The notes under the pieces: model-generated
Told to the model about the DNA's origin: nothing
The model's database searches: none
Seen by the model: only the letters and a program-made list of their open reading frames with translations
Position numbers and translations under genes: made by a program
Assembly (NCBI GenBank): GCA_002715965.1
Contig: PBAL01000008.1
Span: forward strand, 42,570-106,569
DNA: 64,000 nucleotides
Reading direction: 5' to 3'
From: Verrucomicrobiales bacterium
Lineage (GTDB): Bacteria; Verrucomicrobiota; Verrucomicrobiia; Limisphaerales; JAYPXF01
In this document: positions 2,684 to 9,010 of the stretch, in pieces
Numbering within the stretch: the stretch's first letter is position 1
How the letters are laid out: each line of letters opens with the position of its first letter

Positions 2684-4195
2684 CTATTCAAACTTGAAAG
2701 AATACAGGTCAGCGTCCTTCAGCTCAAAGCGCAGCCGAATGGCCTTTCCTTGGAGCGCAGCGACTGACGTTCCGTTTTTCCACGTCACTGTGCGGTCGAC
2801 GGTGTCTCCGAAGTGAATCGGACAATCGTTGAGCGAGAGTCCTTTGATCGCCTTACCGTTGGCGGTCTCGATTGCAACGCGCAATCCGCCTGCGGCCGAG
2901 GTGGCGAAGTTCAGGGACAGACGCTTCCCTTTGAATTTGATCGGCTTGGTGATGATTTCCCCGCCTTTCATGCCGGCACGGACCGAGACAAAGCCATCCA
3001 GACGCAGAGTGTATCGTCGTATGAGATTGTCGTCGCCGGTCCATCCGCCTTCGGTGGAGTAGAGCGAAAGTTCGTTTGGTGCGCCGGGCAATGATGATTT
3101 GGTTTCCACTGCGTGCCAGGCGACGTAATGCTGACCGTATTGCCAGGTCTCAGGACGTTGGATTCCCGGACGCATGAAGGCTTCGTTCCATCGTTCGAAA
3201 TGAACACCGTTGCGGCTCGCCATGACGAGTGCCTCCGTGATTGCCGTGCCGTATCGCAAGTGCGCCTTGGAGCGCATTTCGCGATGCTTCAGCTGCGGAA
3301 GAGCGCGCATGGAATCAGACCAGCCACGTTCGACATAGCGGTTCGGAAAACCGATCAGGATGTGTGGCGCGCGGTGGTAGGGACCGATCTGGTTGGTGTA
3401 GAGGTGTTCGTCATCGGGTGAATCCTCGTAGGTGAGATCGTGCTCGTCCTTCCAATCAAAAAAGTCGTCCGAGCTTGCGGTGCGGATTGCCCGGTAACCC
3501 TCGGGTTTCCAGATTTTGCCGGTGGTGATGCCTTTGGTGAAAGTGCGGAAATAGGCGCGATACTTACCCGCAGCCGAATCCCAGAAGGCGAGGTTTTGCG
3601 AGTCAAATGCGCCCACGGTGACCACCGGGTCCTTGCGCATGAGCTTCCATCGAATTCCGTCCGCGGATTGGAAGGCGAAGAGCCCGCCTTCCTTCGCCGT
3701 GCCCGCAAGCGCCTTGAAACGGGCTTCCGGTTTGCAGTCCGGATTCGCATCGATGAACGGCGCGAAGTTGTGCACGCCAAGACCGGTGAGGATGATGTTG
3801 TTTTCCTTCGAGCCGTTGTATTCGTGCAGACCGAGCTTCGGTTTCTTCCACCGAACTCCATCACGACTTTCTGCATAGCAATACACCTGTTTGCCAATCT
3901 TGAGCCGCCCATCCTTCACGCCTAACGCCGAACCGCGGTGATACATCCGGTAGAGATCCCCATCCTTTAGGACCGTGTGGTATCCGCTCCCAGCACCTTC
4001 CCAGGGCGCATCGTGCCGCACGGCAACATCACGGGGCACGGGATGTTGCAGTCGGCGATTCGCGTCGCCCTTCAGTTCAGCGATCAAATGCTGATCGACG
4101 AACAATTCACGACGGTTGCCGATGTCGATGGGAGCTGCGCCTTCACAAACAAATGCAGCCAGGATCAGAAATGGAGTGATTGATTTAAACGCCAT
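2684..4195 (-). CDS. Secreted beta-propeller protein, GH32/GH43-like (hypothetical)
   Basis: A 503-residue secreted protein. The start at 4195 (MAFKSITPFLILAAFVCEG) gives a clean signal peptide followed directly by the mature sequence; the ORF-track start at 4807 would extend over the divergent neighbour and encodes unlikely sequence. The mature N-terminus (IDIGNRRELFVDQHLI) and repeated blocks with YRMYHRG, YCYAESRDGVRWKKP and YRAYFRTF resemble the five-bladed propeller repeats of clan GH-F/J-like proteins often annotated as hypothetical in Planctomycetes and Verrucomicrobia. The catalytic residues are not certain, so I do not assign an activity. The C-terminal 120 residues look like a beta-sandwich. 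It is divergent, with a 90-base gap, from the PhoD/GH105 fusion, suggesting shared regulation. Confidence 0.75.
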   Translation of the reverse strand: MAFKSITPFLILAAFVCEGAAPIDIGNRRELFVDQHLIAELKGDANRRLQHPVPRDVAVRHDAPWEGAGSGYHTVLKDGDLYRMYHRGSALGVKDGRLKIGKQVYCYAESRDGVRWKKPKLGLHEYNGSKENNIILTGLGVHNFAPFIDANPDCKPEARFKALAGTAKEGGLFAFQSADGIRWKLMRKDPVVTVGAFDSQNLAFWDSAAGKYRAYFRTFTKGITTGKIWKPEGYRAIRTASSDDFFDWKDEHDLTYEDSPDDEHLYTNQIGPYHRAPHILIGFPNRYVERGWSDSMRALPQLKHREMRSKAHLRYGTAITEALVMASRNGVHFERWNEAFMRPGIQRPETWQYGQHYVAWHAVETKSSLPGAPNELSLYSTEGGWTGDDNLIRRYTLRLDGFVSVRAGMKGGEIITKPIKFKGKRLSLNFATSAAGGLRVAIETANGKAIKGLSLNDCPIHFGDTVDRTVTWKNGTSVAALQGKAIRLRFELKDADLYSFKFE

Positions 4196-4285
4196 GGGTA
4201 ATCGTGTGATCTTGGTGGTCTGAATTCGAATAAAAGTCAATCCTTCCGGCTTTTCAACCACCGGGGGCGCTCTTAAGTTCGCGCC

Positions 4286-7200
4286 ATGATTCGTCTTTCC
4301 ACGATTCTCTCGTTCGCCGTCTTGGGGCTGGCTTTGCACTCGGCTGCTCAGGATATCCACACCGCCCATGGAGTCATGGTGGGCGAGGTTGATGAAACCT
4401 CGGCGATTCTTCAAAGCCGCCTGAGCGCGAGCAAAGGTTTGGTGAACAATGATGTGCCGGGCGCTGCCGGCGTTGGGCGCTTTGAGATTTCCGATACTCG
4501 GGATTTTAGGGACATCCGTTTCACCGAGTGGATGAAGGCTGATGCGGAGGGAGATTTTGTTTTGAAAACCAAGGTCGCAGATCTGAAACCCGCGACGCGC
4601 TACTTCTATCGATTGGCGTACGGGGCTAACACAGACTCCACGCGCAGGTCTCGGGTCGGAACGTTCAAGACGCTTCAAGGGAGGCAAGGTGCTGGTGAAG
4701 TCAGCTTCGTGGTCGTGACCGGCATGAACTACAACTCGTTTCACTACGGGGTGCCGCGGAAAGGGAAGCGCAGTGGGGAGCGCATGTATACCGGGCCTGA
4801 CAAACACCTAGGCTTCCCCGCGCTGGAAACGATGCGGAAGATGAAGCCCGATTTCTTCGTGGGCACGGGTGACAACGTCTACTACGACAGCCACGACGAG
4901 CGGGAGGCGACGGATGCGCCGAACATGCGACGTATGTGGCACGAGCAATTGGTCCAGCCGCGCTTCGTGGATTTTCTGAGTGAAGTGGCGACCTATTGGG
5001 AAAAGGACGATCACGATCATCGTTTTAATGACTGTGATCGTGAAGGCAATCGGCCACCGACGAGCGACCTTGGCATCGCGCTTTTTCGAGAGCAGGTGCC
5101 GGTGGTGGACCCCAAGGATCCCAACGCGAAGACCTATCGAACCTATCGCGCGAGCAAGCACCTTCAGATCTGGCTCGTGGAAGGCCGCGACTATCGCAGT
5201 CCGAACAAGATGGATGACGGCCCCCAAAAAACTCTTTGGGGCGCGGAGCAAATCGCGTGGCTGAAGCGTACGCTCATGGCGAGTGACGCCACCTACAAGA
5301 TCCTGATTTCACCGACTCCGATGGTCGGTCCTGATGACGCCTACAAACGGGACAATCACACGAACCATAAGGGCTTCCGCACGGAAGGCCGCGCGTTCTT
5401 TCAGTGGATCAAGGAACAGGGCCTCGACAAGAAGGGCTTCTATCTCGTCTGTGGCGATCGCCATTGGCAATACCACTCGGCTGATCCAACCGGCATTGAG
5501 GAGTTTTCCAGTGGTGCCCTGGTGGATGCGAATTCACGACTGGGTCGCAAACCCGGTGATCCTAAGTCCACAGATCCAAAAGCGGAGATCAACCAGTTCT
5601 ATACGCAGAAGTATCGCTCTGGTGGATTCCTGCGAGTTGCAGTCTCCGGCGATGAAAGTTCGGCGGACGCAAATTTCGAGTTTTACGATGAGAACGGTGA
5701 TCTGCTTTACCAGGCATCAAAATTTCGGCGCTTGGCCAGGAAGGAGGCAAACACCGGACGGACACTGCGCGAAACTGCGATCGGTGTGACGGGTAAGGGT
5801 GGTAAGCTGAAGGCGTTCGTGGATGACGAAGCCCATGATCCGGCCGCGAAAAAGTATCGCGTATTGTTGGTGGGTGGATTGGATGGCGACCCGGCGTCCG
5901 TTGAAGCCGTTCGTCGTGCGATGAGCGATTACCTGTCTGGGAATTCGGGAAAAGGAATTTTGCTGTCCGCGATTCCGAATGCCAATCCCGACGGCGAGGA
6001 GGTAAACTTTCCCCCCGGTGGCAAGGCATACAACGTCGCCAAGACCCAAACGGCGCACTACTTGTGGCGATGGATCGGAATGCAAGCACCTGATCTGGTC
6101 TTCGATGTTCGTGCGGCGAGGTCGGACAAATCGAGCAGCGTCTCGGCATTGACGAAAGCGCTCAACGCAGGGGGTGCATCTGGCTTCGGGGAAATTTCCG
6201 CGTTGGTGAAGGCGATTGAACCCGGTTCAGAAGGCAGGGCCCTGCGACAATCGCTGAGGTATATCCAGATCAATCCTGATCGCTACAAGCCCGGCCCTGG
6301 GACGGCTCGCGAGGAAGCGGTCAAGCGGGCCAAGCGTCAGCCGCTCGAATTGGCACACGCGCTTCTGGACCACTACGGCAAGCAGTTGAATTCGGTGGCA
6401 TACATACCGGCGCTCGCAGTCGTGGCACGTCACCGAATGGCTGGACTTACTGACAAAAACAAGTTCGGAAATGAAGTCGCGCGAGTAGTCGAACCATATG
6501 AATCAGGGACGAAATCGACCTTTGGCAAACGCGTCTCAGGCAGTTCGCTCTCCGGTCACCTGATATTCGGCGAGTTGTCACGCGTCACCGTAGACAAGCG
6601 CTTTGGAGCGCTCATTCTCGCTGCGGCAGACAAGGCTTTCGACTCGAATGGCAAACCGTTGCCGTCGATGCCCTTTCACAATGAAATGAGTGATTCGGTC
6701 TTTATGGGATGTCCCATTCTCGCCGAAGCTGCGCGTTTGACCGGCGAGCGGAAATACATGGATGCCTGTTTCCGCCACTTGCGTTTCATGCAGAAGCTCT
6801 GTCTGCGCGAAGATGGAATCTACCGGCATTCTCCCTTGGATGAAGCAGCTTGGGGACGCGGTAATGGTTTTCCCGCACTCGGTCTTGCGTGGACACTGTC
6901 CTGCCTGCCTGAATCGTATCCGGGACGGCCGGAGATTCTGAAGGCCTTTCGCGAGCATTTGAACGCACTACTTCCACACCAGGACGCATCGGGGATGTGG
7001 CACCAGGTGATCGATCGGCCGGAGAGTTATCGCGAGTTTACTTCCACCTGCATGATCAGTTACGCGATGCTGCGAGGGATGCGGGAAGGCTGGCTGCCGA
7101 GGGAAAAATACCAACCCGCCGTGCGCAAGGCATGGCGAGCCATCGTCCAGCGCGTCGATCTTAAAGGGCACGGCCTCGTCGATGTCTGCACCGGCACCGG

Positions 7201-7327
7201 CAAGCAGAAGAACCTGCAAGCCTACTTCCTCCGAACGGCGATCCTTGGGCCGGACGATCGAGGGGGCGCAATGGCACTGATGTTTGCCACGGAGATGGCC
7301 GCTTACCAGATGGAGAAGGAGAACTGA
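4286..7327 (+). CDS. Secreted PhoD-like phosphatase / M14-like / GH88-GH105 triple fusion
   Basis: A 1013-residue protein with a signal peptide (MIRLSTILSFAVLGLALHSA). Residues about 25-485 match the PhoD alkaline phosphatase/phosphodiesterase family: GTGDNVYYD, WEKDDHDHRFND and CGDRHWQYHS are the metal-binding blocks. Residues about 520-690 resemble an M14 carboxypeptidase-type fold (VLLVGGLDGDP, then IPNANPDG), but the zinc motif HxxE is replaced by DGDP, so this segment is probably not catalytic. Residues about 705-1013 are a GH88/GH105 unsaturated-glycuronyl hydrolase-like alpha/alpha barrel with SDSVFMGCP and WGRGNGF, near the catalytic Asp positions of that family. The combination suggests removal of a phosphate ester and an unsaturated uronic acid from one polysaccharide fragment; that is inference. 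Confidence 0.85.
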   Translation: MIRLSTILSFAVLGLALHSAAQDIHTAHGVMVGEVDETSAILQSRLSASKGLVNNDVPGAAGVGRFEISDTRDFRDIRFTEWMKADAEGDFVLKTKVADLKPATRYFYRLAYGANTDSTRRSRVGTFKTLQGRQGAGEVSFVVVTGMNYNSFHYGVPRKGKRSGERMYTGPDKHLGFPALETMRKMKPDFFVGTGDNVYYDSHDEREATDAPNMRRMWHEQLVQPRFVDFLSEVATYWEKDDHDHRFNDCDREGNRPPTSDLGIALFREQVPVVDPKDPNAKTYRTYRASKHLQIWLVEGRDYRSPNKMDDGPQKTLWGAEQIAWLKRTLMASDATYKILISPTPMVGPDDAYKRDNHTNHKGFRTEGRAFFQWIKEQGLDKKGFYLVCGDRHWQYHSADPTGIEEFSSGALVDANSRLGRKPGDPKSTDPKAEINQFYTQKYRSGGFLRVAVSGDESSADANFEFYDENGDLLYQASKFRRLARKEANTGRTLRETAIGVTGKGGKLKAFVDDEAHDPAAKKYRVLLVGGLDGDPASVEAVRRAMSDYLSGNSGKGILLSAIPNANPDGEEVNFPPGGKAYNVAKTQTAHYLWRWIGMQAPDLVFDVRAARSDKSSSVSALTKALNAGGASGFGEISALVKAIEPGSEGRALRQSLRYIQINPDRYKPGPGTAREEAVKRAKRQPLELAHALLDHYGKQLNSVAYIPALAVVARHRMAGLTDKNKFGNEVARVVEPYESGTKSTFGKRVSGSSLSGHLIFGELSRVTVDKRFGALILAAADKAFDSNGKPLPSMPFHNEMSDSVFMGCPILAEAARLTGERKYMDACFRHLRFMQKLCLREDGIYRHSPLDEAAWGRGNGFPALGLAWTLSCLPESYPGRPEILKAFREHLNALLPHQDASGMWHQVIDRPESYREFTSTCMISYAMLRGMREGWLPREKYQPAVRKAWRAIVQRVDLKGHGLVDVCTGTGKQKNLQAYFLRTAILGPDDRGGAMALMFATEMAAYQMEKEN

Positions 7328-7795: not shown

Positions 7796-9010
7796 TCAGA
7801 GCATATGGGAGAACATCGCGTCTCGCAGCTTCGGCTCAAACCAAGTGCTCTTGGGGGGCATGACTCCATCGTTGTCCGCGATGGCCATGAGATCTTCGAT
7901 GCTGGTGGGATACATCGAGAAGGCACACGCGAATTTCCCGCTGTTCACAATACGCTCCAACTCGCCCGTTCCGCGTATCCCCCCAATGAACGCAATGTCA
8001 TTGCTGGTCCGCGGATCGGCAATTCCGAAGAGCGGCTCCAACACGTGCTTCTGAAGCAATGAAACATCAAGACTCTCGAAGGGATCGTTCATCGCCGAGA
8101 GTTCTGCTTTGAAGGTCAGCCCATACCACTTGCCTTTCAGGTAAAACCCCAAATCGTGCTTCTTGTCCGGCTTGGCCGCACCGTCCGGAGTGACTTCGAA
8201 CACATTTCTGAGTTCCGCCAGAAGTTCTTCACCCGAGCGCCCGTTCAGATTCTTTAGTGCCCGATTGTAGGCAAGGATCTGCATTTGGTCGTGCGGGAAG
8301 ATTACCGTCAGAAACCAACCGGAGTGACCTTCGCCGTTTCGCGATTTGAACACCCTTTCCGCAGCAGCACTCCGATGATGCCCATCCGCGATGTAGGTGT
8401 TTGGAATCTTGGCGAATTCCCCGGTGATGAATGCGATATCCGTTTCAGCCGAAACGATCCAGGCTGTGTGTCGAACTTCATCGGAAGCAGTGAAATCAAC
8501 TGCCGGAACCTCCGCAGCTTTCTTGGTAACAAATTCGTCCATCGCCTGGCTGGCTTGATAAGTGAGGAACACCGGACCGGTCTGGGAATTCAGTGACTCC
8601 ATGTGTTGCACACGGTCGTCCTCCTTCTGTGGGCGGGTAAACTCGTGTTTCTTGATGATGTTCTTTGCGTACTCGTCGCAGCTGGATGTAGCGACCAACC
8701 CCACCTGCGAGTGGCCGCCCATGATCTGGCGATACAGGTAGTAGCAGGGTTTGTCGTCCTGAAAGAGAACTCCATCGGCGATCAGCTTCTGCAGGTTTTC
8801 AGCACCCTTGGCGTAAATTTCAGCCGAGTAGACATCCGTGCCGGCCGGCAGATCGATCTCCGGCTTACTGACACGGAGGAAACTCAACGGATTCCCGTCT
8901 GCCATTTCACGCGCTTCATCGGAAGACATGACGTCGTAAGGAAGTTCGCAGACCTGGGCTGCGAGTTCCGGCTTTGGACGAAGGGCTGCGAAGGGTCGTA
9001 TCGTTGCCAT
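7796..9010 (-). CDS. DUF1015 family protein
   Basis: The 404-residue sequence starts MATIRPFAALRPKPELAAQVCELPYDVM and continues with NPLSFLRVSKPEIDL, both hallmarks of DUF1015 (sometimes annotated as putative HTH/SerB-linked protein). The conserved central block IADGHHRSAAAERV is present. The family is cytoplasmic, widespread in bacteria and archaea and has no established biochemical role; genomic links to serine metabolism have been noted, but no such neighbour is seen here. The start is an ATG with no competing upstream start. A perfect inverted repeat lies about 140 bases upstream of the start. Confidence 0.92.
   Translation of the reverse strand: MATIRPFAALRPKPELAAQVCELPYDVMSSDEAREMADGNPLSFLRVSKPEIDLPAGTDVYSAEIYAKGAENLQKLIADGVLFQDDKPCYYLYRQIMGGHSQVGLVATSSCDEYAKNIIKKHEFTRPQKEDDRVQHMESLNSQTGPVFLTYQASQAMDEFVTKKAAEVPAVDFTASDEVRHTAWIVSAETDIAFITGEFAKIPNTYIADGHHRSAAAERVFKSRNGEGHSGWFLTVIFPHDQMQILAYNRALKNLNGRSGEELLAELRNVFEVTPDGAAKPDKKHDLGFYLKGKWYGLTFKAELSAMNDPFESLDVSLLQKHVLEPLFGIADPRTSNDIAFIGGIRGTGELERIVNSGKFACAFSMYPTSIEDLMAIADNDGVMPPKSTWFEPKLRDAMFSHML

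Follow-up and report, generated by a model that had tools for sequence, protein, structure and literature searches.

Two enzymes of Bacillus subtilis, the phosphatase PhoD and the GH105 glycosidase YteR, are among the closest described counterparts of the protein analyzed here. In B. subtilis PhoD an Fe ligand is provided by Cys180, and the substitution C180A abolishes activity; the PhoD family as a whole has been described as containing Cys and Asp subfamilies at this Fe-ligand position (PMC4223295). For YteR, roles have been assigned to the active-site residues, and YesR and RhiN carry Asn in place of Asp88 (PMC4528949). Literature searches for PhoD fused to a glycosidase gave nothing relevant, and the same was true of searches for M14 domains fused to GH88/GH105, so that the pairing of M14-like and GH105-like domains, although widespread, is apparently undescribed. 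We analyzed a gene that joins all three domain types, located in a 64,000-nucleotide stretch of a contig from a Verrucomicrobiales bacterium (hereafter the window). Our main reading, to which we assign a probability of roughly 60%, is that the product of the gene is a two-enzyme protein, predicted to be exported, in which a PhoD-clade metallophosphoesterase is followed by a glycosidase made up of a dead M14 domain and a GH105-type barrel, and that it originated by the joining of domains.

The gene is a single frame without internal stops and stands alone, with a divergent gene on its 5' side and a convergent DUF1015 gene on its 3' side (Table 1). The divergent neighbor (IDIGNRRELFVDQHLI...) is one that we take to resemble GH32-type propeller proteins of Planctomycetes. 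The N-terminus looks like a Sec-type signal peptide by eye, and the fusion protein is predicted to be exported or secreted. The preliminary description of this gene had named its three parts as a PhoD phosphatase, an M14-like domain, and a GH88/GH105-like domain, and these identities were confirmed, the outer two by Pfam and by matches in the PDB and the M14-like domain by fold and profile-profile comparison. PhoD_N scored 48.5 bits against a cut-off of 30, PhoD (PF09423) scored 67.4 bits against a cut-off of 27 (E 1.6e-18), and Glyco_hydro_88 (PF07470) matched residues 802-1006 with 149 bits against a cut-off of 26.6 (E 2.2e-43).

Table 1. Features of the fusion gene and its neighbors (positions are those of the window).
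Feature	Residues	Positions	Strand	Basis
Whole fusion gene, 1013 aa		4286..7327	+	ORF list, translation, Pfam
N-terminal Sec-type signal peptide (MIRLSTILSFAVLGLALHSAA)	1-21	4286..4348	+	Read by eye
PhoD_N	28-129	4367..4672	+	Pfam PF16655, E 1.4e-12
PhoD metallophosphoesterase	130-484 (Pfam 174-418)	4673..5737	+	Pfam, motif comparison
PhoD/M14-like junction	485-495	5738..5770	+	Relatives' ends and starts compared
Degenerate M14-fold domain	487-690	5744..6355	+	Alignment, AlphaFold2, Foldseek, hhalign
GH88/GH105-type (alpha/alpha)6 barrel	691-1013	6356..7324	+	Pfam, profile and fold searches
Divergent neighbor, upstream		2684 to about 4189 (ORF 2684-4807)	-	ORF list; no Pfam match
DUF1015 gene, convergent, downstream		7796-9010	-	Pfam

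The middle domain matched no Pfam family across residues 487-690, but it does contain the M14 landmarks that had been pointed out from the sequence, GGLDGDP at 530-536 and IPNANPDG at 563-570. An AlphaFold2 model based on an alignment of 31 relatives had a pLDDT of 91.7 and a pTM of 0.90. When this model was compared with the PDB by Foldseek, M14 carboxypeptidases made up nearly all of the best 50 matches listed, with a best E-value of 1.5e-5 and 63 matches at E<=0.001. Taken by query length, the TM-scores of the M14 matches were modest (0.34-0.55), which reflects the small size of the domain (204 amino acids as compared to some 300 or more) and the absence of the C-terminal M14 part. Profile-profile comparison by hhalign aligned the family with a verrucomicrobial AstE-like M14 protein (E 4.6e-6) that retains the HxxE (GGVHGNEPAG) and DLHE motifs, and the Pfam model Peptidase_M14 was weakly matched by 3 of 32 family members (best E 0.011). 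A sequence search of the PDB with the family profile found no M14 chain, so the M14 link rests on the fold and profile-profile evidence; taken together, the fold match and the hhalign result indicate that the domain is indeed M14-like.

The hhalign alignment places D533, P536, and R609 of the fusion protein at the positions of the M14 zinc triad H/E/H, in agreement with the earlier observation that the zinc-binding His and Glu are gone. This loss extends to the family as a whole: an intact triad was found in none of 43 aligned relatives, with the first His present in 0, the second Glu in 4, and the third His in 1. Based on the model and this family-wide loss of ligands, the domain is considered an M14-fold domain in which zinc binding was lost early in the history of the family. 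The family shares the motif FPPxGxAY...YLWRWIGMxAPDLVV, and the invariant or near-invariant residues P90, P91, Y96, Y106, W108, R109, and D117 (domain numbering) cluster in FPPxGxAY..YLWRWIGMxAPD, as might be expected if the domain were not dead but a working hydrolase that relied on another metal site or a non-metal site. We consider such an activity quite improbable. No conserved set of metal ligands is found, the H/E/H positions being D, P, R, or freely variable, and in members from Verrucomicrobiota and Acidobacteriota the N-terminal half of the domain is reduced or almost gone while the clustered motif is kept, a pattern more in line with a structural interface than with an active site.

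The C-terminal segment was supported as a GH88/GH105-like domain by fold as well as by Pfam. The top 26 PDB matches in the fold search were all GH105/GH88-type entries, and the profile search likewise placed GH105/GH88 on top. In the profile alignment, YteR residues Y41, D143, M147, H189, W211, and R213 correspond to Y706, D803, M807, H848, W856, and R858 of the fusion protein. The catalytic D803 is kept in 42 of 43 relatives, Y706 in all 43, and H848 in 40, and W856 and R858 are also near-invariant. The position of YteR D88 is occupied, according to the profile alignment, by S753; Ser is found here in 33/43 relatives and Asp or Asn in none. In addition, YteR W217 and W141 are replaced by F862 and S802. 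These comparisons suggest that the Asp-dependent chemistry of the barrel has probably been retained. The specificity for unsaturated uronyl substrates may not hold, given that D88 is replaced by Ser and the equivalents of Trp141 and Trp217 by Ser and Phe.

We also examined whether the M14-like domain and barrel occur together elsewhere. A genome scan yielded 80 loci in Planctomycetota, Acidobacteriota (many of them Bryobacterales), Verrucomicrobiota, a Massilia, and Chloroflexota. A protein of approximately 500-700 amino acids, in which the M14-like domain is followed by the barrel, is encoded at many of these loci, whereas others have a shortened M14 part or the barrel alone. PhoD was not found in the same ORF, or within about 5 kb (less at contig ends), in any of the 80 loci. 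A two-domain model of the M14-like domain and barrel (527 residues) had a pLDDT of 92.0 and a pTM of 0.93, based on which the two are predicted to form one rigid unit with defined packing. The occurrence of the pair without PhoD, together with the predicted rigid packing, points to a two-domain glycosidase that acquired PhoD. The M14-like domain thus normally accompanies the barrel, on its N-terminal side, in one GH105-like clade and PhoD is the newcomer, which runs counter to the earlier proposal that the M14-like domain serves as a module between two active domains.

Close to the window's own genome the M14-like module is nearly absent. When 388 genomes of the phylum were searched with the single sequence of the middle domain, it was found in 2, including the genome of the window itself, and a profile search of the order found only the window and one AstE-like M14. 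Several other architectures were recorded during this analysis. The M14-like and barrel pair is fused to a BD-FAE esterase at locus L056. At L084:4485-9617, a frame of 1711 codons combines the M14-like and GH105 pair with glucose/sorbosone dehydrogenase (GSDH) and cytochrome c domains. In three verrucomicrobial loci (L086, L091, and L101), a shortened M14-like part is preceded by approximately 400 additional residues at the N-terminus that match beta-helix proteins weakly. At L157:3413-5125 (minus strand), a BPL_N/ThuA-like amidotransferase-fold domain is fused to an AstE-like M14 enzyme whose zinc motif is intact.

The PhoD half retains most of the Fe/Ca ligand motifs of the family, these being mapped onto the B. 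subtilis numbering by motif only: GD..Y (D196/Y199), DDHD (D241/D242), ND (N248/D249), and GDRH (D391/H393). The position of the Fe ligand Cys180 is occupied by Gly146 within the motif VTGMNY, and thus by neither Cys nor Asp. Since an essential Fe-ligand Cys is replaced by Gly, the phosphatase activity of this half may be weak, altered, or absent. The preliminary description had assumed two active domains on the chain. The barrel keeps D803, Tyr706, and His848, but that both domains are active is not assured, Gly146 standing for the PhoD Cys and Ser753 for YteR Asp88.

A stronger form of this doubt is that PhoD has become a pseudoenzyme that has ceased to bind Fe and whose role is to bind polyanions or sugars on behalf of the barrel, the barrel alone being active. 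Gly146 stands exactly where C180A abolishes the activity of the B. subtilis enzyme (PMC4223295), and the same Gly is found in the Bryobacterales PhoD relatives L158, L194, and L195 and in L123, indicating an inherited feature rather than a recent lesion; most other relatives in the clade have Cys. However, GD..Y, DDHD, ND or DD, and GDRH are all kept, both here and in the Gly-bearing relatives inspected, which would be unusual for a dead enzyme. We therefore regard a pure binding role for PhoD as rather unlikely.

In a search that took in 384 genomes from the class, 12 to which the loci had led, and samples from the order and the phylum, PhoD was joined to the M14-like domain and barrel only in the window. 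A potential concern with a fusion found in one genome is that the assembly, here a draft of 101 contigs (92.7% complete), or a sequencing error has artificially joined neighboring genes. The fusion is indeed known from one draft assembly and is confirmed by no close homolog, but several observations make such an artefact very unlikely. The 1013-codon frame is uninterrupted within a contig of more than 106 kb, GC content is even throughout the region of the gene, and, as noted, PhoD did not lie near the pair in any of the 80 loci. The junction also falls at a domain boundary: the point at which PhoD relatives naturally end is followed immediately by the conserved beginning of the M14-like domain, there is no second signal peptide at 485-495, and the leader found in its relatives is missing from the M14-like half, unlike what would be expected from accidental read-through between two secreted proteins. 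That the PhoD relatives end at the join and that the M14-like half has no leader thus favor a true domain fusion over read-through.

The nearest relatives found for both halves are in Bryobacterales. All six Bryobacterales genomes examined hold a PhoD relative and an M14-like plus barrel protein as separate genes, matching at 51-64% by segment for PhoD and at 47-58% by segment for the M14-like domain and barrel. When linkage of the two genes was sought in Bryobacterales, they were found either on separate contigs or, where they shared one, megabases apart. Trees of both halves placed Bryobacterales nearest by distance, with long branches and without resolution of the deep branching; proximity in distance alone hints at a donor from this order. 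These relationships are consistent with the proposal that the fusion arose by the joining of domains whose closest relatives found are separate Bryobacterales genes.

Related PhoD modules of Verrucomicrobiota are fused to a sulfatase (L177 and L178), GH2 (L184), and a GDSL lipase (L186), and stand-alone relatives adjoin apparent sulfatases and sugar transporters as judged by eye. The window's own genome contains a second PhoD fusion (L002:283-2856, on G000:C47) consisting of DUF6807 and PhoD, with the Cys kept. These four kinds of partner make the fusion described here a further version of a modular theme among polysaccharide enzymes. Relatives of either half are fused to, or lie beside, sulfatases, GH2, and esterases, which suits decorated polysaccharides in general, and the fused and adjoining genes point to modular de-esterification and cleavage of such polymers, a substrate that we infer from gene context. 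The preliminary description had proposed a lyase-cleaved or phosphorylated polysaccharide, and this is plausible as a putative substrate.

In the mechanism we propose, the dead M14 domain would serve the glycosidase by lending it structure or by positioning the substrate, shaping the cleft of the enzyme. The barrel would free a terminal sugar, probably an (unsaturated) uronic one, by Asp-dependent vinyl-ether hydration or hydrolysis, and the PhoD half would act on the same decorated polysaccharide by removing an ester substituent, either phosphate or another oxyanion ester of a related kind. Decorated polysaccharides of acidic character would in this way probably be both stripped and cut. We offer a more far-reaching version only tentatively: the zinc-less M14 pseudopeptidase could be a standing part of a GH105-like clade across phyla, in which the change of D88 to Ser marks a shift in chemistry and defines a new glycosidase family, and its combination here with a Cys-less PhoD having a changed metal site could constitute a single-chain de-esterifying glycosidase.

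The analysis identifies a conserved pair, an M14-fold pseudoenzyme and a GH105-like barrel, of which the M14 part has no Pfam model. The fusion also provides a Rosetta-stone hint that the PhoD clade and the M14-like/GH105 glycosidase act on the same polymer. Since PhoD proteins of this clade are fused to polysaccharide enzymes, and some of them lack the essential Fe ligand, a PhoD annotation in such bacteria need not indicate phosphate scavenging.

Compared to the known systems, the fusion protein shares with PhoD of B. subtilis the PhoD_N and PhoD domains and most metal-ligand motifs, but has Gly146 for Cys180, no evident capping helix at the C-terminus, and an attached glycosidase. With the M14 metallocarboxypeptidases and AstE-AspA-like M14 enzymes it shares the fold, the GGxxG and NPDG landmarks, and profile similarity, but its domain lacks all three zinc ligands and the C-terminal part, and in the relatives examined is followed by a GH105-type barrel. 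The (alpha/alpha)6 barrel is common to the GH105 enzymes YteR of B. subtilis (PDB 1nc5, 2gh4) and 3k11 of B. thetaiotaomicron; the equivalents of YteR Y41, D143, H189, W211, and R213 are kept, whereas D88 is Ser and Trp141 and Trp217 are changed, and YteR has neither the M14-like N-terminal domain nor the PhoD carried by the fusion. Finally, the sulfatase-PhoD, GH2-PhoD, GDSL-PhoD, and DUF6807-PhoD fusions have in common with this protein the broad PhoD clade and a polysaccharide-active partner, but in those proteins PhoD is C-terminal, whereas here it is N-terminal and joined to a different partner.
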